From: Pseudomonadota bacterium
GTDB lineage: Bacteria > Pseudomonadota > Alphaproteobacteria > Rhizobiales > Beijerinckiaceae
Length of the DNA: 64,000 bases
Assembly: GCA_020161575.1 (NCBI GenBank)
Contig: JAIUNR010000009.1
Coordinates: 1 to 64,000, forward strand
Direction of reading: 5' to 3'
Part shown: positions 54,671 through 63,068 of the stretch, one piece after another
How the letters are laid out: every line of letters begins with the position of its first letter
Position numbering within the stretch: the stretch's first letter is position 1
The notes under the pieces: model-generated
Told to the model about the DNA's origin: nothing
Databases searched by the model: none
What the model saw: only the letters and a program-made list of their open reading frames with translations
Translations under genes and position numbers: made by a program

Positions 54671-56809
54671 TCAGATCGAGCCCACCGTCCTGAGCCGCGC
54701 GCTCGGATGGATCTCGCCCTGCGCGATGACCGCCGTCTGCGGGCGGAAGCGCTCGATGATCATCCGCACGTAAGGCCGGACAGCGTTCGACGTGACCAGC
54801 ACCGGCAATTCGCCAAGCTTCGCCGCTTCCTCGAAGCGATCGCGCAGGGCGATCACGAAATCATGCAGGCGCGAGGGCTGCATTGCGAGATGCTTCACCT
54901 CGCCGTCGCCGATGAGCGAGGACGAGAAGGCATCCTCCCATTGCGGCGAGAGCGTGATGAGCGCGAGCTGGCCGGTCGGCCCGGTATGCTGCGCGCAGAT
55001 CTGCCGGCCAAGCCGCGAGCGGATATGTTCGACGATCATGCGCGGATCGCGCAGCGCGCCGGAAATCTCCGCGATCGCCTCGAGGATCGTGCCGAGGTCG
55101 CGGATCGAGACGCGCTCCGCCAGCAGAAGCTGGAGCACGCGCTGGATGCCGGTATGCGAGATCTGGCCCGGAATCATGTCCTTCATCAGATCCTGATGTG
55201 CCTTGGGAAGATCCTTGAGCAGCTTCTGCACTTCCACGAAGGAAAGCAGCTCGGACATGTTGTTCTTGATCACTTCGGTCAGATGCGTCGCGATCACGGT
55301 GGCGGGATCGACGACCGTATAGCCGCGCAGCTGCGCCTCGTCGCGCAGGGCCTCGTCGATCCAGGTCGCCGGCAGGCCGAAGGTCGGCTCCAGCAGATGC
55401 GCGCCCGGAAGCTGGACCTGCCCGCCGGTCGGGTCCATCGCCATATACTGGTTGGGGAAGACGATGCCGTTGCCGGCGTCGATCTCCTTCATCTTGATGA
55501 CATACTGGTTCGATTCGAGCTGGACATTGTCGACGAGACGCACGGAGGGCAGAACGAAGCCCATTTCCGAAGCGAGCGTGCGGCGCAAGGCCTTGATCTG
55601 CTCGGTGATCTTGTCCTCGCCGTCCTGCCCCTGAACCAGCGGCAGCAGCGCATAGCCGATCTCGATGCGCAGTTCGTCGAGCTTGAGCGCATCCTGAACC
55701 GGCGTATCCTCCGTACGGGCCTGCGATGACGCGCTCGCCATGATCTGCTCGGCGGCGGCTTCAAGCATGGCGCGCTTGTGCTCGCGGTCGAGCTTGGCGG
55801 CAAGATAGCCGGCGATGGCGGCCAGTCCGAGGAAGGGAAGCGCCGGCATGCCCGGCAGGATCGCGATCACCACCATGACGAAAGCCGACATGCCCAGGGC
55901 CTTGGAGGAACTCGCGAGCTGCTTCGAGAGCGCCTTGTCGGCGGTTCCGGTCACGCCCGCCTTCGAAACCAGAAGACCGGCGGCGGTCGAGACGATCAGC
56001 GCCGGAATCTGGGTAACGAGGCCGTCGCCCACGGTGAGCAGCGTATAGGTGCGCGCGGCTTCCCCGAAGGTCATGCTGTTCTGCGCCACGCCGATGATGA
56101 TGCCGCCGATCACGTTGATCATCGTGATCAGAATGCCGGCAATGGCGTCACCGCGCACGAATTTGGAGGCACCGTCCATCGCGCCGTAGAACGAGCTTTC
56201 ATCCTCGAGCGCCTTGCGCCGCGCCTTCGCCTCGTCCTGGTCGATCAGGCCGGCGGAAAGATCGGCGTCGATCGCCATCTGCTTGCCCGGCATCGCATCG
56301 AGGCTGAAGCGCGCCGCGACTTCCGCGATGCGCCCCGAACCCTTGGTGATGACCACGAAGTTCACGATCATCAGGATGATGAAGACGATGACGCCGATGA
56401 CGAAATTGCCCCCCATCACGAAACCGCCGAAGGCTTCGATGACATGGCCCGCCGCACCCTGCCCGGTATGGCCGTTCTGGAGGATGAGGCGCGTGGAGGC
56501 GAGGTTCAGCGAGAGCCTCAGCATCGTCGCGATGAGCAGGATGGTGGGGAAAGCGGAGAATTCGAGCGGCGCCGCGATGAACAGCGCCGTCATCAGGATC
56601 AGGACCGAAAGGATGATCGAGAAAGCCAGGAAGAGATCCAGCAGGAAAGGCGGCAAAGGCACGATCAGAACGACCAGAATGGTCAGGACGCCAAGCGCAA
56701 GCGCGATATCACCGCGCTTGAGGAAGGCACCCAGCTCCTTCGCGTTCATCACGTTGCCGAGCGGCAGCCTGCCTGGTCCGCCGGAATTGCCCGTGGTCAC
56801 GTCACTCAT
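54671..56809 (-). CDS. flhA: Flagellar biosynthesis protein FlhA
   Basis: FlhA is the export-gate protein of the flagellar secretion system. The 712-residue protein has about eight N-terminal membrane helices and the FHIPEP-type loop with RIAEVAARFSLDAMPGKQMA near residue 160. A large cytoplasmic domain from about 340 binds FliJ and the export chaperones. All of the gate region is present. It is the last reverse-strand gene of the fliF series but has its own upstream region with a perfect CtrA box. Confidence 0.97.
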   Translation of the reverse strand: MSDVTTGNSGGPGRLPLGNVMNAKELGAFLKRGDIALALGVLTILVVLIVPLPPFLLDLFLAFSIILSVLILMTALFIAAPLEFSAFPTILLIATMLRLSLNLASTRLILQNGHTGQGAAGHVIEAFGGFVMGGNFVIGVIVFIILMIVNFVVITKGSGRIAEVAARFSLDAMPGKQMAIDADLSAGLIDQDEAKARRKALEDESSFYGAMDGASKFVRGDAIAGILITMINVIGGIIIGVAQNSMTFGEAARTYTLLTVGDGLVTQIPALIVSTAAGLLVSKAGVTGTADKALSKQLASSSKALGMSAFVMVVIAILPGMPALPFLGLAAIAGYLAAKLDREHKRAMLEAAAEQIMASASSQARTEDTPVQDALKLDELRIEIGYALLPLVQGQDGEDKITEQIKALRRTLASEMGFVLPSVRLVDNVQLESNQYVIKMKEIDAGNGIVFPNQYMAMDPTGGQVQLPGAHLLEPTFGLPATWIDEALRDEAQLRGYTVVDPATVIATHLTEVIKNNMSELLSFVEVQKLLKDLPKAHQDLMKDMIPGQISHTGIQRVLQLLLAERVSIRDLGTILEAIAEISGALRDPRMIVEHIRSRLGRQICAQHTGPTGQLALITLSPQWEDAFSSSLIGDGEVKHLAMQPSRLHDFVIALRDRFEEAAKLGELPVLVTSNAVRPYVRMIIERFRPQTAVIAQGEIHPSARLRTVGSI

Positions 56810-56879
56810 CTGCCCGCCCCTTGCAGAGCATCGCCCTCATGCCCGCCTCCTGCCGGCCGAGTCGACACTCGTGGTTCTA

Positions 56880-56892
56880 GGCAATTTTTGCC
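56880..56892. promoter_or_regulatory. Inverted repeat GGCAA-N3-TTGCC upstream of flhA
   Basis: GGCAA-TTT-TTGCC is a perfect inverted repeat 71 bases from the flhA start. The same repeat with a different spacer stands at the same distance from a CtrA box before fliF. It may be the binding site of FlbD (an ftr-like site), whose gene is in the same block. That assignment is an inference. Confidence 0.55.
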
Positions 56893-56902
56893 GAGTCCAT
56901 GG

Positions 56903-56917
56903 TTAATTCCGGGTTAA
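56903..56917. promoter_or_regulatory. CtrA box upstream of flhA
   Basis: TTAA-TTCCGGG-TTAA is an exact match to the CtrA consensus TTAA-N7-TTAA. It lies 94 bases from the flhA start, 10 bases outside the GGCAA repeat. This suggests that CtrA directly activates flhA. Confidence 0.72.
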
Positions 56918-56995
56918 GGAACAGGCACTGTTCCTAGAATCCGCGATGATTCATTCATCTGCAGCCGCAGGTCATGCAGGGCGCGGCATTTGCCC

Positions 56996-57598
56996 TCAGC
57001 GCGCCGTCGTCGCCAGCCAGGCCCGGCAACGCGCCTCGGGGTCCTGATGGCGCAGGATATCCGAGACAACCGCGACACAATCCGCCCCCGCGTCGAGACA
57101 GGCGGAAGCGGTTTCGAGCGTAATCCCGCCGATCGCGACGAGCGGGATATCGCCGATCCGGCGTTTCCAGGCACGGATCGGGGCGAGCCCCTGCGGCGCG
57201 AAGCGCATGGCCTTCACAATGGTTGGGAAAATCGGCCCGAGCGCAATGTAATCGGGCGCAAGATCGAGCGCGCGCGCCAGTTCCGCCTCGTCATGGGTCG
57301 AGATGCCGAACCGGAGTCCCGCACGGCGGATCGCGGGAAGGTCGGCCTCGTCGAGATCCTCCTGCCCGAGATGGAGCCATTCGGCCTTCTCGTCGATCGC
57401 GATACGCCAGAAATCATTGATAACGAGCACAGCGCCGTGCCGATCGCAAGCCGCACGCGCCGCGACGATAGCGGCGCGGATCTCTCCCTCGGAGCGATCC
57501 TTCATGCGCAGCTGGATGAAGCCTGCGCCGTTTCGCGCCAGCCGTTCCATCCACTCGGCCGAATCGACGACAGGGTAGAAGGGGGCGAGCGTCTTCAT
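56996..57598 (-). CDS. thiE: Thiamine phosphate synthase (ThiE-like)
   Basis: The 200-residue protein has the TIM-barrel ThiE pattern: FIQLRMKDRSEGEI, VLVINDFWRIAID, EWLHLGQEDLDE, YIALGPIFPTIVK and PLVAIGGITLETA. Residues for pyrophosphate and phosphate binding are in place, so it should join the thiazole and pyrimidine halves of thiamine. The G-P-I-F-P-T motif is followed by IVKAM, where many ThiE proteins have TKT. The gene lies between flbD and flhA on the same strand, far from any other thi gene in the window. I see no TPP riboswitch. Confidence 0.85.
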   Translation of the reverse strand: MKTLAPFYPVVDSAEWMERLARNGAGFIQLRMKDRSEGEIRAAIVAARAACDRHGAVLVINDFWRIAIDEKAEWLHLGQEDLDEADLPAIRRAGLRFGISTHDEAELARALDLAPDYIALGPIFPTIVKAMRFAPQGLAPIRAWKRRIGDIPLVAIGGITLETASACLDAGADCVAVVSDILRHQDPEARCRAWLATTAR

Positions 57599-57647
57599 GC
57601 ACGGGAACCTATGTCAGGCGCCGCGCGTAAGGCGGCGCCAAATGGAA

Positions 57648-59015
57648 TCAGGCCATCGCGATACGGCTCGCGCCGGGCTCGGGAACATCGAGACCAACCG
57701 CGACATATTCGTTGAGCTTGTTGCGCAAGGTGCGGATCGAGATGCCGAGGATCTTCGCGGCATGGGTGCGGTTGCCGAGGCAATGGTCGAGCGTATCGAG
57801 AATAAGCTCGCGCTCGACATCGGCCACCGTGCGCCCGACCAAGGCCCGCGTCGCCGCTTCGGCCGCCTCCGCGGCGCGGCGGGCGGTGCTGTCGCCGGTC
57901 TCGCGCGCGATCTCGATCCCTTCCGGCGTCATGATCGCATCGGGGCCGATCTCGATCCCCTGCGCCAGCAGAACCGCACGGTGAATCGTATTCTCCAGCT
58001 CGCGGACATTGCCGCGCCAGGGATTGGCGAGCAGCACGCGCTTGGCATCGAGGCTGATCGCGCGGAACGGCAGGCCGTTGAGTTCAGCGTAACGCTTGGC
58101 GAAATGGTTCGACAGCTCGACGATATCGTTTGCCCGTTCGCGCAGCGGCGGGATCTTCAGGTTGACGACGTTGAGGCGATAGAGAAGATCCTCGCGGAAC
58201 TCACCCGCCTTCACGCTTTCGATGAGATTGCGGTTGGAGGTCGCGATGATGCGGATATCCACCGGAACGGGCCGCGTGCCGCCCACACGGTCGATCACGC
58301 GCTCCTGAATGGCACGCAGCAGCTTGGCCTGAAGGCGCACATCCATCTCGGAGATTTCGTCGAGCAGGAGTGTGCCGCCATCGGCCTCCTCGAATTTGCC
58401 GACACGCCGGGCGATGGCGCCGGTAAACGCGCCCTTCTCATGGCCGAAAAGTTCGCTTTCGAGCAGGTTCTCGGGGATGGCGGCGCAATTCACCGAGACG
58501 AAAGGCTTGGAAGCGCGCTTCGATTTCTCGTGCAGGAAACGCGCCATCACTTCCTTGCCGACGCCCGATTCGCCGGTGATGAGGACGGAGGCATCCGAAC
58601 CCGCGATCTGCTGGGCGAGCTTCACCACCCGGCCCATCGCCTCATCACGGAAGATGATCGAGGTCTCGGTGCGGCTCACCGCCTCAAGGATCGCGGCGAT
58701 CAGCTCGGGATCAGGCGGCAGCGGGACATATTCCTTCGCGCCGGCTTCGATCGCCGCGACTGCCACGCGCTTGTCATTGCCGGTGCCACAGGCGACGATC
58801 GGCAGCGTGATGTGTTCGCCCTTGAGGCCGCCCACAAGCGCCGCGATGTCGAGATGCGCGTCGACCATGGCCAGATCGGCGCCCTTGCCCTGGCGGAGAT
58901 GGGAAAGCGCCGCTTCGATGCCGTCCACCTGCGCGACCTGCGCGCCGCGTTCGCGTGCGATCTTCGCCGCCGTGATCAATTCACCGCGCAATGTTCCGAC
59001 GATGAGAAGCCGCAT
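57648..59015 (-). CDS. flbD: Sigma-54-dependent flagellar regulator FlbD
   Basis: FlbD activates late flagellar genes with sigma-54 RNA polymerase and represses fliF in Caulobacter. The 455-residue protein has a degenerate N-terminal receiver (LIVGTLRGE in place of the acidic pair, with D in LAMVDAHLD). The AAA+ domain has ITGESGVGKEVMARFLHEKS, the sigma-54 loop GAFTGAIARR, and GGTLLLDEISEM. A Fis-type helix-turn-helix follows, with NRTHAAKILGISIRTLRNKL. The degenerate receiver is usual for FlbD, which is controlled by FliX instead of phosphorylation. It follows fliN on the same strand. Confidence 0.94.
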   Translation of the reverse strand: MRLLIVGTLRGELITAAKIARERGAQVAQVDGIEAALSHLRQGKGADLAMVDAHLDIAALVGGLKGEHITLPIVACGTGNDKRVAVAAIEAGAKEYVPLPPDPELIAAILEAVSRTETSIIFRDEAMGRVVKLAQQIAGSDASVLITGESGVGKEVMARFLHEKSKRASKPFVSVNCAAIPENLLESELFGHEKGAFTGAIARRVGKFEEADGGTLLLDEISEMDVRLQAKLLRAIQERVIDRVGGTRPVPVDIRIIATSNRNLIESVKAGEFREDLLYRLNVVNLKIPPLRERANDIVELSNHFAKRYAELNGLPFRAISLDAKRVLLANPWRGNVRELENTIHRAVLLAQGIEIGPDAIMTPEGIEIARETGDSTARRAAEAAEAATRALVGRTVADVERELILDTLDHCLGNRTHAAKILGISIRTLRNKLNEYVAVGLDVPEPGASRIAMA

Positions 59016-59090
59016 GGCTTTTCTCCTTCATTCCCAACCTGTCCGCGAGGTGCGGGCGGGTGTCTCGAAGCCGATATCGAAACGCTGCGA

Positions 59091-59438
59091 TCAGCGATCC
59101 GACTTGATGATTTCCGTCATGGTCACGCCGAGCTTGTCATCGACGAGAACAACCTCGCCGCGCGCGACCAGCCGGTCGTTGACGAAGATGTCGATCGCCT
59201 CGCCGACCCGGCGGTCAAGCTCAAGAATATGGCCGGGCGTCATGCGGAGCAGATCGCCCACCCCCATTTTCGAGCGCCCGAGCACGGCAGAGACCTGCAC
59301 CGGCACGTCAAAAACATTCTCAAGGTCCGCCGCGCTCTTGGTCGAGGGCGAAGCTTCGCCCTCGCCGCCATAGGCAGCCGCAACGAGATCGGCGGTGGAT
59401 TCGAGATCCTGGAGCTGAAAATTACCTTCGGTCGACAT
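59091..59438 (-). CDS. fliN: Flagellar motor switch protein FliN
   Basis: The 115-residue protein has a disordered N-terminus and one SpoA domain: VQVSAVLGRSKMGVGDLLRM, GHILELDRRVGEAIDIFVND and VLVDDKLGVTMTEII. FliN forms the lower part of the C-ring and docks the FliH-FliI complex. It lies between fliH and flbD, 30 and 75 bases from them. Confidence 0.94.
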   Translation of the reverse strand: MSTEGNFQLQDLESTADLVAAAYGGEGEASPSTKSAADLENVFDVPVQVSAVLGRSKMGVGDLLRMTPGHILELDRRVGEAIDIFVNDRLVARGEVVLVDDKLGVTMTEIIKSDR

Positions 59439-59468
59439 GGGTTTGTGCCTTCTGGTCTTGACGGTGTT

Positions 59469-60107
59469 TCATTCGCAATCCGGGAACAGAGCGTTCACGG
59501 CTTGATCGAGCATGGTTTCGAGTTTGGCGCGCTCGCGGACAATGCCGCCATCGGCCCACTCGATCCGGCAATCACCGGCAGGGATATCGGGGTCGGGGAA
59601 GACGAAGAGCTTCGCCTCGATCCCGTTCTCGCGCATCAGAGCGCCGATCCGCGTCTTGCAGGCATCGACGAGTGCCGGCGCGACGCGCACCGCCACATGG
59701 GGCGAGCCGCGCAGATCGCTGAAAATCGCACGCGCGGTGGCCTCAACCGCCTGAACGGGGATGACATCCATCATCCGCCCGGCGAGCTTGCGGGCGAAGA
59801 GCCGCGCGAAGGCGATCGCCTCGCTGCGGGCCTGTTCCTCGACACGCGCCATCTCTATCGCAGCCATTTCGAGGCGAGCGGCGAGGTTCTGCATCGCCTG
59901 CGCGATCTGGAGCTTTTCCTCGTCGCTCTGGAGCTGCTTGCCTTCCTCGACCCCCGCGAGCCGGCCCGCCTCGCGCGCCTCCTCGACAAGCCGCTGATGC
60001 TCGGCCTGGGGAACCGGGCCACGTCGCCCGGCATCAAGGAACGGCGAGCCGCCGCCCGATTTGGCGAAATCCCGGTCGAAGCTGAACGCGGTATGCATCT
60101 GCGCCAT
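59469..60107 (-). CDS. fliH: Flagellar assembly protein FliH
   Basis: The 212-residue protein has a disordered N-terminus, a central helix with repeated small-residue and charged positions (GRLAGVEEGKQLQSDEEKLQ), and a C-terminal V-ATPase-E-like domain ending WADGGIVRERAKLETMLDQA. FliH is the stalk that holds FliI at the C-ring. Sequence conservation in FliH is low, so position between fliG and fliN adds to the call. It begins 10 bases after fliG. Confidence 0.88.
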   Translation of the reverse strand: MAQMHTAFSFDRDFAKSGGGSPFLDAGRRGPVPQAEHQRLVEEAREAGRLAGVEEGKQLQSDEEKLQIAQAMQNLAARLEMAAIEMARVEEQARSEAIAFARLFARKLAGRMMDVIPVQAVEATARAIFSDLRGSPHVAVRVAPALVDACKTRIGALMRENGIEAKLFVFPDPDIPAGDCRIEWADGGIVRERAKLETMLDQAVNALFPDCE

Positions 60108-60117
60108 CCTGTCCGCC

Positions 60118-61182
60118 TCAGTAGATCAGTTCGTCTTCGGCGCGGTTCTTGCCGATGGTGATCTCGCCCTTGGCCGAAAGCTCCTTGGCGAGCATGACAA
60201 TCTTGCTCTGAGCCTCGTCGACTTCCTTGAGCCGCACCGGGCCGCGCCCGGCCATGAGGTCTTCCATGTTCTTCGCCGCACGGGTGGACATCTGCTGGAA
60301 GAAGAATTTCTTGATCGCCGGCGCCGCGCCCTTGAGGGCGATGGCGAGCTGATCGCGGTCGGAATAGCGGATCAGGGTCTGGACCGAGCCCGGATCGAGC
60401 TTCTGGAGATCCTCGAAGGTGAACATCAGGGAGCGGATCTTCTGCGCGGCCTCGCGGTTCCGCTCGTCGAGCGCCGAGAGGAACCAGCTTTCCGTCTGAC
60501 GGTCAAAGGAGTTGAAGATTTCAGCGATCATCTCGTGGCTGTCGCGCCGCGAGGTCTGCGAGAGGTTCGAGATGAACTCGGTACGCAAGGTGTCCTCGAT
60601 ATGGTTGAGAACCTCCTTCTGTACCGGCTCCATGTTGAGCATCCGGTTGACCACCTCCAGCGCGAATTCATGCGGCAGGAGGGAGAGAACCCGCGCGGCG
60701 TTCTCCGAATGGATCTTGGACAGGATGACGGCGACGGTCTGCGGGTATTCGCCCTTGAGATAGTTGGCGAGAACCTGATCCTGCACGTTGCCGAGCTTCT
60801 GCCACATGTTGCGGCCAGCCGGCCCGCGCAGCTCCTCCATGAGGGTATAGACCTTGTCCTTGGGCAGGATCTTGGTGAGCAGGGCCTCGGTGCGGTCGAA
60901 ATCACCCGTCACCGCGCCGCCGGCAGCCATCATGGAAAGGAATTCCGCGACCAGCGCCTCGACAGCTTCAGCGGTGACCGAACCGAGCCGGGCCATGGCA
61001 CGGGAGACGGTGCGGATCTCATCCTCGTCCAGCGCCGCCCAGATCTCGCCGCCATAGCGCTCGCCCAGCACCAGGAGGATGATCGCGGCCTTTTCCGCGC
61101 CCGAAAGGAAGCGGGTCAGTTCCGGGTTCGGCGCGCCGTTGTCGGCGTTCTGTTCGGTGGTTGCGGCTGCTGCCTTGGACAT
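60118..61182 (-). CDS. fliG: Flagellar motor switch protein FliG
   Basis: FliG is the rotor protein that meets the stator. The 354-residue protein has an N-terminal FliF-binding domain with [20 protein letters not shown] and a middle domain with [22 protein letters not shown] containing the EHPQ-like patch (here EYPQ). The C-terminal torque helix is [18 protein letters not shown]. All three domains are present. It follows fliF by 32 bases. Confidence 0.96.
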
Positions 61183-61214
61183 GTTCTCTTCCTGTCAGCT
61201 GGATTTTGTCGGGA

Positions 61215-62894
61215 TCAGCGCGTCTGCGCGATCCATTGCCGGACGATGGCGGTCGATTCGGACGGGTTCTCCTGCACGATCTTGCCGAGGCTATCGATGG
61301 CGCCCTGCTGAAGCGCGTGCTGGATGGCATGCTGGTTGATGGCGTTGGAATTGGCGGGCACGAGCGCGCCTTCCTGGCCAGGGGCGGGCAGGGCGAGCAT
61401 CTGGCCCGAACCACCCTGGTTGATCATGCCCGAAGCGTCGATCACGCTCTGGAGGCCGGAGATCTGGGGGGCGCCCGGCCCGCCCTCGCCATCCTTGCCG
61501 GCCTTGGCGCCAATGCCCATCTGGCGCATCAGCGGGCGGACAACCAAGAGCATGACCAGCAGCGTCAGGATGCCCAGCACGCCGAGTTCGATCATGCGCA
61601 GCACGTCTTCCTTGGTCAGCGCGAGAAGCTGCTCCATCAGCGTCTGGGATTTCGTGTCGACCGCCGCAACTCCTTCCGCGAAGCGCAGGTTGATCACCTC
61701 GACCTGATCGCCACGATTGCGGTCAAAGCCGACCGAGGAGCGCACCAGCGCCGCGATACGGTCGAGTTCCTCCGCCGTACGCGGCTTGTATTCCATCTGA
61801 CCGCCGGCGCCGGGCGTGTAGACGCCGTCGACCAGCACCGCCACCGAGAGGCGCTTCACGCGGCCGGCTTCGATGATCTCGGTGCGGGTCGTCTTGGAAA
61901 TCTCGTAGTTGACGGTTTCCTCGGCGCGCTGGGTCTGCTCGCGCTGTTGCGGCTGCTGACCCTGCTGCTGGTTCTGCGGCAATTCATTGGCGACGGAGAC
62001 CTGACCATCCTTCGATTCGGCGGATTGCTGGTTCTCGGTGCGGGTCTGCGTGGAGCGCACGACGCGGCTTTCAGGGTCGAAATTATCCGTCACCTGCTGG
62101 ATGCGGTTGAAATCCATCTCGGCGGCGACCTGAACACGCGCCCGGCCACGCCCGACGATGCTCGCCACGATCTCCTCGACCTGTGTACGCAGGCGGCGCT
62201 CATGCGAGGATTGCTTGTCCTGCGCCTGCATGGCGGCATCATTCTCGTTGCCCGCGCCATCGGCGAGCAGGCGGCCGGTTTCGTCAACGATCGAGACACG
62301 CTCGGGCTTCAGGCCCTGGATGGCGGTTGCGACAAGGTGACGGATCGCGCGGATCTGGCCGGCATCGAGTTCGCCGCGCACTTTCAGCACGATAGAGGCG
62401 CGCGGCTCCTGCTTCTCACGATCGAAGAGCTTCTTTTCGGGAATCGCGAGATGAACGCGCGCCTGCTGCACCCGCTCGATCCCCTTGATCGTGCGGGCAA
62501 GCTCACCTTCGAGCGCGCGCAGCTGGTTCATGCCCTGCACGAAGCTCGTGGCCGAGAAAGTATCGCTCTTGTCGAAGATTTCGTAGCCGACACTGCCACC
62601 CGCGGGCAGGCCCTTGCCGGCGAATTCCATGCGCAGACGCGTCGCCTGATCCCGCGGGACAAGGATGGTGCTGCCATCCTGCCGGATCTCGTACTTGATG
62701 CCGCGATTCTCGAGATCGCGGATGATCGTGTTCGATTCCTGAATTGGGAGGTCCGCGAAGAGCACGCCCATGCCGGGAGTCGACATCTTCGTCATGACAA
62801 AGGCAAAGAACCCGATCAGCGCGAGCGTGACAGCGCCCATCGCGACAAGGCGTTGCGGTCCGAGGCGGTTCACGATTTCCAGGATGCCGTTCAC
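61215..62894 (-). CDS. fliF: Flagellar MS-ring protein FliF
   Basis: FliF forms the membrane ring on which the flagellum is built. The 559-residue protein has a first membrane helix at about 16-36. The ring-building motifs of the YscJ/FliF domain follow, with LEGELARTIKGIERVQQARVHLA near residue 125. A Gln-rich part lies near 300-320, and a second membrane helix near 425-445 precedes the FliG-binding tail. The start is GTG at 62894. It is the first gene of the reverse-strand flagellar series and has a CtrA box and a GGCAA repeat upstream. Confidence 0.95.
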   Translation of the reverse strand: MNGILEIVNRLGPQRLVAMGAVTLALIGFFAFVMTKMSTPGMGVLFADLPIQESNTIIRDLENRGIKYEIRQDGSTILVPRDQATRLRMEFAGKGLPAGGSVGYEIFDKSDTFSATSFVQGMNQLRALEGELARTIKGIERVQQARVHLAIPEKKLFDREKQEPRASIVLKVRGELDAGQIRAIRHLVATAIQGLKPERVSIVDETGRLLADGAGNENDAAMQAQDKQSSHERRLRTQVEEIVASIVGRGRARVQVAAEMDFNRIQQVTDNFDPESRVVRSTQTRTENQQSAESKDGQVSVANELPQNQQQGQQPQQREQTQRAEETVNYEISKTTRTEIIEAGRVKRLSVAVLVDGVYTPGAGGQMEYKPRTAEELDRIAALVRSSVGFDRNRGDQVEVINLRFAEGVAAVDTKSQTLMEQLLALTKEDVLRMIELGVLGILTLLVMLLVVRPLMRQMGIGAKAGKDGEGGPGAPQISGLQSVIDASGMINQGGSGQMLALPAPGQEGALVPANSNAINQHAIQHALQQGAIDSLGKIVQENPSESTAIVRQWIAQTR

Positions 62895-62955
62895 TGCTTC
62901 ACCATCGAGCTAGCTGTGTGCCACGCGATTTGCGTGGTTTGCGTTTTCTGCGCTA

Positions 62956-62968
62956 GGCAAGATTTGCC
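62956..62968. promoter_or_regulatory. Inverted repeat GGCAA-N3-TTGCC upstream of fliF
   Basis: GGCAA-GAT-TTGCC lies 62 bases from the fliF start and is preceded by CTA, as in the flhA copy. In Caulobacter the fliF promoter has an FlbD site (ftr4) next to the CtrA site, so this is a good candidate for the equivalent element. Confidence 0.55.
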
Positions 62969-62978
62969 CGGTGGATGG

Positions 62979-62993
62979 TTACCGTGACGTTAA
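62979..62993. promoter_or_regulatory. CtrA box upstream of fliF
   Basis: TTAC-CGTGACG-TTAA matches the CtrA consensus TTAA-N7-TTAA with one mismatch. It lies 85 bases from the fliF start. CtrA activation of fliF is well known in Caulobacter. The box is also 76 bases from the divergent pdxA-family start. Confidence 0.65.
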
Positions 62994-63068
62994 CTCCGGC
63001 AATTTTTTCCGCGCCCAGCACCGAAACTTCGGAGAGGGCCTATCCGATCGAGAAGGAAGACAGGTCCC

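Follow-up and report, generated by a model that had tools for sequence, protein, structure and literature searches.

What do the promoters of two early flagellar genes of a Beijerinckiaceae bacterium have in common? The window, that is, the whole stretch of DNA analysed here, comprises 64,000 nucleotides (positions 1 to 64,000 of contig JAIUNR010000009.1, assembly GCA_020161575.1). Both flhA and fliF in this window are preceded by a CtrA box and a GGCAA-N3-TTGCC palindrome. The initial annotation, made from the letters alone, gave the pair as GGCAATTTTTGCC (56880-56892) and TTAATTCCGGGTTAA (56903-56917) on the flhA side and as GGCAAGATTTGCC (62956-62968) and TTACCGTGACGTTAA (62979-62993) on the fliF side, with an offset of 23 bases between palindrome and box in both cases, a CTA preceding both palindromes, and an ATGGTTA common to both boxes. 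When the sequence was read again, all of these letters, coordinates and distances proved correct. Since flhA and fliF both lie on the minus strand, the CTA before the palindromes is a CTAG at the downstream edge of each palindrome, and the order in the direction of transcription is the CtrA box, 10 bp, and the palindrome downstream. The layout of both promoters is TTAA-N7-KTAA, 10 bases, GGCAA-N3-TTGCC, and TAG, which is TTAACCCGGAATTAA-CCATGGACTC-GGCAAAAATTGCC-TAG for flhA and TTAACGTCACGGTAA-CCATCCACCG-GGCAAATCTTGCC-TAG for fliF. The genes and their elements are as follows.

54671..56809, minus strand: flhA (TIGR01398, 895.6 bits, cut-off 772.1)
56877..56880, minus strand: CTAG at the downstream edge of the flhA operator; its last base is the first base of the palindrome, and the predicted start is the A at 56878
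56880..56892, minus strand: probable FlbD operator (ftr-like palindrome) of flhA, GGCAAAAATTGCC, an exact palindrome 10 bp from the CtrA box
56903..56917, minus strand: CtrA box of the flhA promoter, TTAACCCGGAATTAA, an exact TTAA-N7-TTAA and a member of the composite
61215..62894, minus strand: fliF (TIGR00206, 304.6 bits, cut-off 129.75)
62953..62956, minus strand: CTAG at the downstream edge of the fliF operator, with a predicted start at the A at 62954
62956..62968, minus strand: probable FlbD operator (ftr4-like palindrome) of fliF, GGCAAATCTTGCC; its place is matched in 31 of 31 Asticcacaulis-family fliF promoters
62979..62993, minus strand: CtrA box of the fliF promoter, TTAACGTCACGGTAA, with a single departure from TTAA-N7-TTAA (TTAA-N7-GTAA)

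A CtrA box is found at both early flagellar promoters, exact at flhA and with one departure at fliF. The pair is very probably a switch in the class II (early) flagellar promoters of fliF and flhA, with CtrA as its activator and FlbD as its repressor. From its box, TTAA-N7-KTAA near -35, CtrA would recruit RNA polymerase and so turn on fliF and flhA. An FlbD dimer on the palindrome, exactly 10 bp downstream over the -10 and start region, would shut the same promoter off. Near sigma54 promoters, such as that of a hook gene of this genome, FlbD would turn later genes on. Binding of FlbD and CtrA at both promoters, and repression there, are predictions from sequence. In Caulobacter, FlbD acts through ftr4 to repress fliF and also serves as an activator of later sigma54 genes (PMC3930126). 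Judging by their layout, the window elements belong to this Caulobacter fliF/ftr4 kind of promoter, here in a Hyphomicrobiales genome.

Is the element common in this genome and in the order? In the window, the palindrome occurs twice against an expectation of 0.11, and two or more copies were seen in one of 100 shuffles. The whole genome (3.19 Mb) has seven bare palindromes against four for the reversed control; the palindrome alone is thus only mildly enriched. Four of the seven are at flagellar loci, namely flhA, fliF, a hook gene, and a putative fliL/fliM site upstream of open reading frames (ORFs) judged by eye to be fliL and fliM. The hook-gene palindrome (C1:445382) precedes the second of two hook genes (FlgE_D2 domain, Pfam), and a sigma54-like site, TGGCACGAAATATGCG (TGGCACG-N4-ATGCG), lies 98 bp further. 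The genome scan for the composite at fixed spacing that the initial annotation had called for was extended to 397 genomes of the order Hyphomicrobiales. In these genomes the full composite is far beyond chance; the exact form with the 10-base spacer was found at 111 sites in 95 genomes, and the reversed pattern at none. Of the 111 sites, all but that of the window fliF (110) were re-read. By tblastn, with the gene required at -60 to 250 nt, 107 of these 110 directly precede flgB (59), flhA (23), fliF (21) or fliO (4); two of the four reference flgB/fliO pairs were taken from the same site set, and those rows match by construction. Among the three unassigned sites, one (L247) turned out to be flhA once a longer stretch was read. 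Another, in genome G225, lies before a gene for a LysE-type translocator (PF01810) that has an flbD-like gene on one side and an flhA gene on the other. The third (L306, G304:C1:983024) is in genome G304. It is flanked by a PAS-domain ORF and by an ORF that looks fliO-like by eye but has no Pfam match, and it may be what is left of a lost flagellar locus.

A collection of named genomes gave the same picture. At least 120 loci with 121 matches, all read, were obtained from it, and its species overlap with the order set. The names bearing the composite include Devosia, Roseibium, Rhodoplanes, Bosea and Rhabdaerophilum, and it is these names that identify the order as Hyphomicrobiales. Among the matches listed, 89 of 95 in loci labelled Alphaproteobacteria directly precede flgB, fliF, flhA or fliO (one of the 89, L119, is labelled Proteobacteria only), and none of the 26 in otherwise-labelled loci was assigned to one of these four genes, the reference being alphaproteobacterial proteins. 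Four of the six unassigned alphaproteobacterial matches listed lie within about 150 nt of the locus end (L109, L134, L170 and L197), and those of L109 and L134 adjoin ORFs that read as fliO and fliP by eye. A fifth, L131 of Asticcacaulis, precedes an SLT-domain gene, and for L171 no flagellar gene was found at the locus.

How rigid is the spacing? When gaps of 0 to 30 were allowed in the 397 genomes, 162 sites in 122 genomes were found, against four for the reversed pattern. A gap of 10 accounts for 111 of them, a gap of 9 for 12, and gaps of 4 and 5 for eight each; the other gaps seen have one to four sites each. This tally was made by eye from 49 rows with other gaps, the 111 gap-10 rows, and two sites of genome G374 that have no listed gap. 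All seven gap-9 sites that were fetched, out of 12, precede flgB. Of the 19 sites with gaps of 4 to 6, 13 were fetched (L336-L348); five were checked by Pfam and the rest by eye, and L345 was not clear. By Pfam, three of them (L341, L343 and L346) lie between the FliX and FlgI genes and one (L338) between FliL and an FlgE/F/G-family gene, while L336 has FlgI downstream.

The footprint of the fliF promoter was then compared between two families. For the window family, I took the 30 best-scoring of 153 FliF-positive genomes, the window included, which were chosen by FliF homology and not by the element; the other 123, many with an FliF only about 30% identical, stand outside the count. The gap is 10 in 28 of these 30 fliF upstream regions and 9 in one, and one site is weak and different. 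The Asticcacaulis family (taken as Caulobacteraceae) comprises 60 genomes, 54 of them with FliF, and 31 loci were read. All 31 have the gap of 10, with sites such as GGTAAATCCTGCC or GGAAATTACTGCC. An FlbD-type element thus occupies the same fixed place in nearly all the fliF promoters read from the two families. In dinucleotide shuffles of the upstream sequence, a gap of 10 with at most four mismatches appeared in 0 of 600 (window family) and 1 of 620 (Asticcacaulis family), and the same procedure applied to the fliF coding sequence as a control gave 0 of 90 and 0 of 93. Over 26 and 30 distinct fliF sequences, GG at positions 11-12, A at position 14 and TGCC at positions 20-23 are invariant, while position 13 varies. 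An A is found at position 25, the predicted start, in 23 of 26 and 30 of 30 promoters. For these counts identical rows were taken once and two loci whose gap is not 10 (L019 and L032) were left out, and the picking of best matches favours the palindrome letters but not positions 24-26.

Which protein would bind the palindrome? The initial annotation had proposed an FlbD (ftr-like) site in fixed register with CtrA, and the genome encodes both proteins together with FliX, a partner of FlbD in Caulobacter (PMC3096577).

50500..51201, minus strand: ctrA (NF045991, 421.8 bits, cut-off 350)
57648..59015, minus strand: flbD, NtrC-family regulator of flagellar genes (NF050807, 782.5 bits, cut-off 750; Pfam Sigma54_activat and HTH_8)
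C1:466092 of the genome: fliX (PF10768, 115.2 bits, cut-off 25)

FlbD scores are bimodal in the order, and an ortholog was accepted at E of 1e-110 or below (weakest accepted 2.0e-121, strongest rejected 1.2e-102). An FlbD ortholog is present in 93 of the 95 composite genomes against 131 of the 302 others (Fisher p 2.6e-25); the lists were compiled by eye, and the p-value overstates the case, since the genomes are related. A genome without FlbD may also be one without this kind of flagellum. Of the 12 Asticcacaulis-family genomes searched, 11 have the ortholog. The HTH recognition helix, ISIRTLRNKL, is identical in all 12 aligned FlbDs (that of the window and 11 of the Asticcacaulis family), so that the two groups share it; one residue just before the helix varies (K in the window FlbD; N or T in those of the Asticcacaulis family). 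Could another dimeric regulator, such as a different NtrC-family or Fis-type HTH protein, be the one that binds? The link of FlbD to the site is drawn from sequence, and 395 of the 397 genomes have some NtrC-family match to FlbD. However, the composite tracks the FlbD ortholog and not the NtrC family at large, the genes served are flagellar, and the composite occurs in a promoter that is reportedly repressed by FlbD in Caulobacter. Another regulator is thus very unlikely. The proposal of FlbD and CtrA in a fixed register is well supported by the presence of flbD and ctrA in the window and fliX in the genome, by the recurrence of the register in the order and at the Asticcacaulis-family fliF, by the co-occurrence with FlbD orthologs, by the recognition helix common to the window FlbD and the 11 of the Asticcacaulis family, and by the palindrome 98 bp upstream of the sigma54-like hook-gene site, where an FlbD enhancer would be expected.

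Where does transcription start? The CtrA promoters of R. sphaeroides start 23-24 nt past the CtrA box, and the A at -11 and the G at -4 do not vary among them (PMC6180460). Full CtrA sites of Caulobacter have their 5′ end near -35, for example at -39 (PMC4287350). From the R. sphaeroides distance, the starts are predicted at or beside the A of the CTAG, at 62954 for fliF and 56878 for flhA on the minus strand. With these starts, the A at -11 would coincide with the first A of GGCAA, and the G at -4 with that of TTGCC. The predicted FlbD operator would then cover the -10 element. Such an overlap would account for the one variable base (-12) between fixed neighbours in the left half-site. It would also show how a sigma54 activator could silence a CtrA promoter, namely by covering it.

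The same alignment also favours another explanation, in which the palindrome is the core promoter itself, that is, the -10 element and start region of CtrA-activated promoters, and not an operator. The R. sphaeroides-based start puts the -10 inside the palindrome, and its invariant A and G fall on invariant letters. Moreover, CtrA is required at the fla2 promoters of R. sphaeroides, and the Rhodobacteraceae shown in a figure of that paper lack FlbD (PMC6180460). However, a core promoter needs no dyad symmetry, yet an exact inverted repeat recurs. The same palindrome also lies 98 bp upstream of the hook-gene sigma54-like site and, at gaps of 4 to 6, between the FliX and FlgI genes. Of the 12 exact CtrA boxes of this genome, those of flhA and flgB are the only ones with a palindrome (at most one mismatch) within 30 bp on either side, and the composite co-occurs with FlbD. 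A plain core promoter is therefore improbable, and an FlbD operator laid over the -10 element remains the preferred reading. The palindrome was also considered as a sigma54-dependent promoter. The sigma54 consensus has GG and GC 12 bases apart (TGGCAC-N5-TTGC). In GGCAA-N3-TTGCC they are 10 apart, and this candidate was rejected on spacing.

Several results weigh against a CtrA/FlbD switch. Taken alone, the exact CtrA box shows no enrichment in the genome, with 12 copies where the reversed pattern has 21, and the flgB gene of this genome (Flg_bb_rod) has a CtrA box, TTAACGGCCTATTAA, and a palindrome, GGCAAAATTTTCC, at a gap of 9 and with one mismatch. Three of the seven exact palindromes are non-flagellar by eye, two lying within ORFs and one before a glycosyltransferase-like ORF. 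The initial annotation had held that random placement of the repeat in the genome would count against it; this is true of these three bare palindromes and false for the composite. In the Asticcacaulis family the fliF sites match the palindrome imperfectly. Of the 31, 28 differ from it at two letters, and all were taken as best matches with up to three mismatches allowed, which favours conserved letters. Two composite genomes have no detectable FlbD ortholog, G559 (87% complete) and G304 (99% complete), and G1009 of the Asticcacaulis family has the fliF element (L223) with only paralog-level FlbD matches. The exact composite is absent from 131 of the 224 FlbD-positive genomes, so that the exact consensus is not needed. 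Finally, a free-gap search of the class matched nine of 385 genomes, two of them of the window's genus; the seven genomes beyond the order have scattered gaps (2, 4, 8, 9, 14, 16 and 16), against three control matches. The exact form is therefore largely a feature of the order, and the element of the Asticcacaulis family departs too far from the exact pattern to be matched by it. Might the two palindromes and CtrA boxes of the window, then, stand at an equal offset by chance? The modest genomic counts of the bare palindrome and of the exact CtrA box favour this explanation. However, the count of the composite in the 397 genomes against its empty control, and the footprint in two groups, make coincidence extremely improbable.

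How does the CtrA/FlbD pair compare with known systems? It shares with the fliF promoter of Caulobacter crescentus the gene, the CtrA box, an FlbD-type site in the promoter, and flbD and fliX in the genome, and the 10-bp register is identical in all the Asticcacaulis-family fliF promoters read. Unlike that promoter, the window has an exact GGCAA-N3-TTGCC palindrome (ftr4 being compared by its description), and the composite also stands before flhA here and before flgB and fliO in the order. The palindrome at C1:445382 resembles the Caulobacter FlbD/ftr enhancers at sigma54 class III promoters in lying 98 bp upstream of a sigma54-like site, whereas the two window sites are not sigma54 promoters. 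The likeness to the CtrA-activated fla2 promoters of R. sphaeroides lies in the start distance and the aligned A and G, and the difference in the absence of FlbD from the family members shown there. In the open-licence literature, from which subscription journals are mostly missing, no description of the composite in fixed register or of FlbD operators in Hyphomicrobiales was found. Apparently new are a register kept rigidly in two groups, an operator that is unusually clean, the use of this operator also at flhA, flgB and fliO, and its proposed position over the -10.

Taken together, the results tip the balance slightly towards a rigid CtrA/-10/FlbD cassette that would be ancestral to Caulobacterales and Hyphomicrobiales and reused before fliF, flhA, fliO and flgB. 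A second register, with gaps of 4 to 6, would serve the divergent fliX/flgI and fliL/flgF-type promoters, and the Hyphomicrobiales flgB would have moved into the early, self-limiting class. The palindrome offers a sharp candidate operator sequence for FlbD outside Caulobacter, and the composite a candidate genome-readable signature of flagellar genes switched on by CtrA and off by FlbD. For the repression of CtrA-type promoters by a sigma54 activator, the layout predicts occlusion of the -10 and start with CtrA at a fixed phase. In Hyphomicrobiales, flgB, fliO and flhA share the layout of fliF.

Some further observations were made at these loci. The glycosyltransferase-like ORF (by eye) is preceded by an exact palindrome with the letters of the fliF one, GGCAAATCTTGCC (L003, G000:C3:170157), and none of the twelve exact CtrA boxes of the genome is found there. 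The two hook genes (FlgE_D2) are in tandem (L199 3836-6923, G000:C1:443836-446923). Upstream of each lie a sigma54-like site and an FlbD-type palindrome; one of the two palindromes is exact and the other has a single mismatch. In an Asticcacaulis locus (L131 2428-2465), an exact composite precedes an SLT-domain (lytic transglycosylase-like) gene, which is not a classical flagellar gene. In the flagellar cluster of the window, a thiamine monophosphate synthase gene (TMP-TENI, 56996-57598) lies between flbD and flhA. In G225 this slot is held by the LysE-type gene with its own composite. On the pdxA side of the fliF CtrA box, 4 bp beyond it, there is a one-mismatch palindrome, GGCAATTTTTTCC (62998-63010). 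It was considered as a second FlbD site and taken as chance, as it was not seen in the nine other members of the genus that were read. In all ten sequences read from the window's genus, about six consecutive A's on the fliF strand (63003-63008 in the window) stand upstream of the fliF CtrA box and are possibly a UP-like element.

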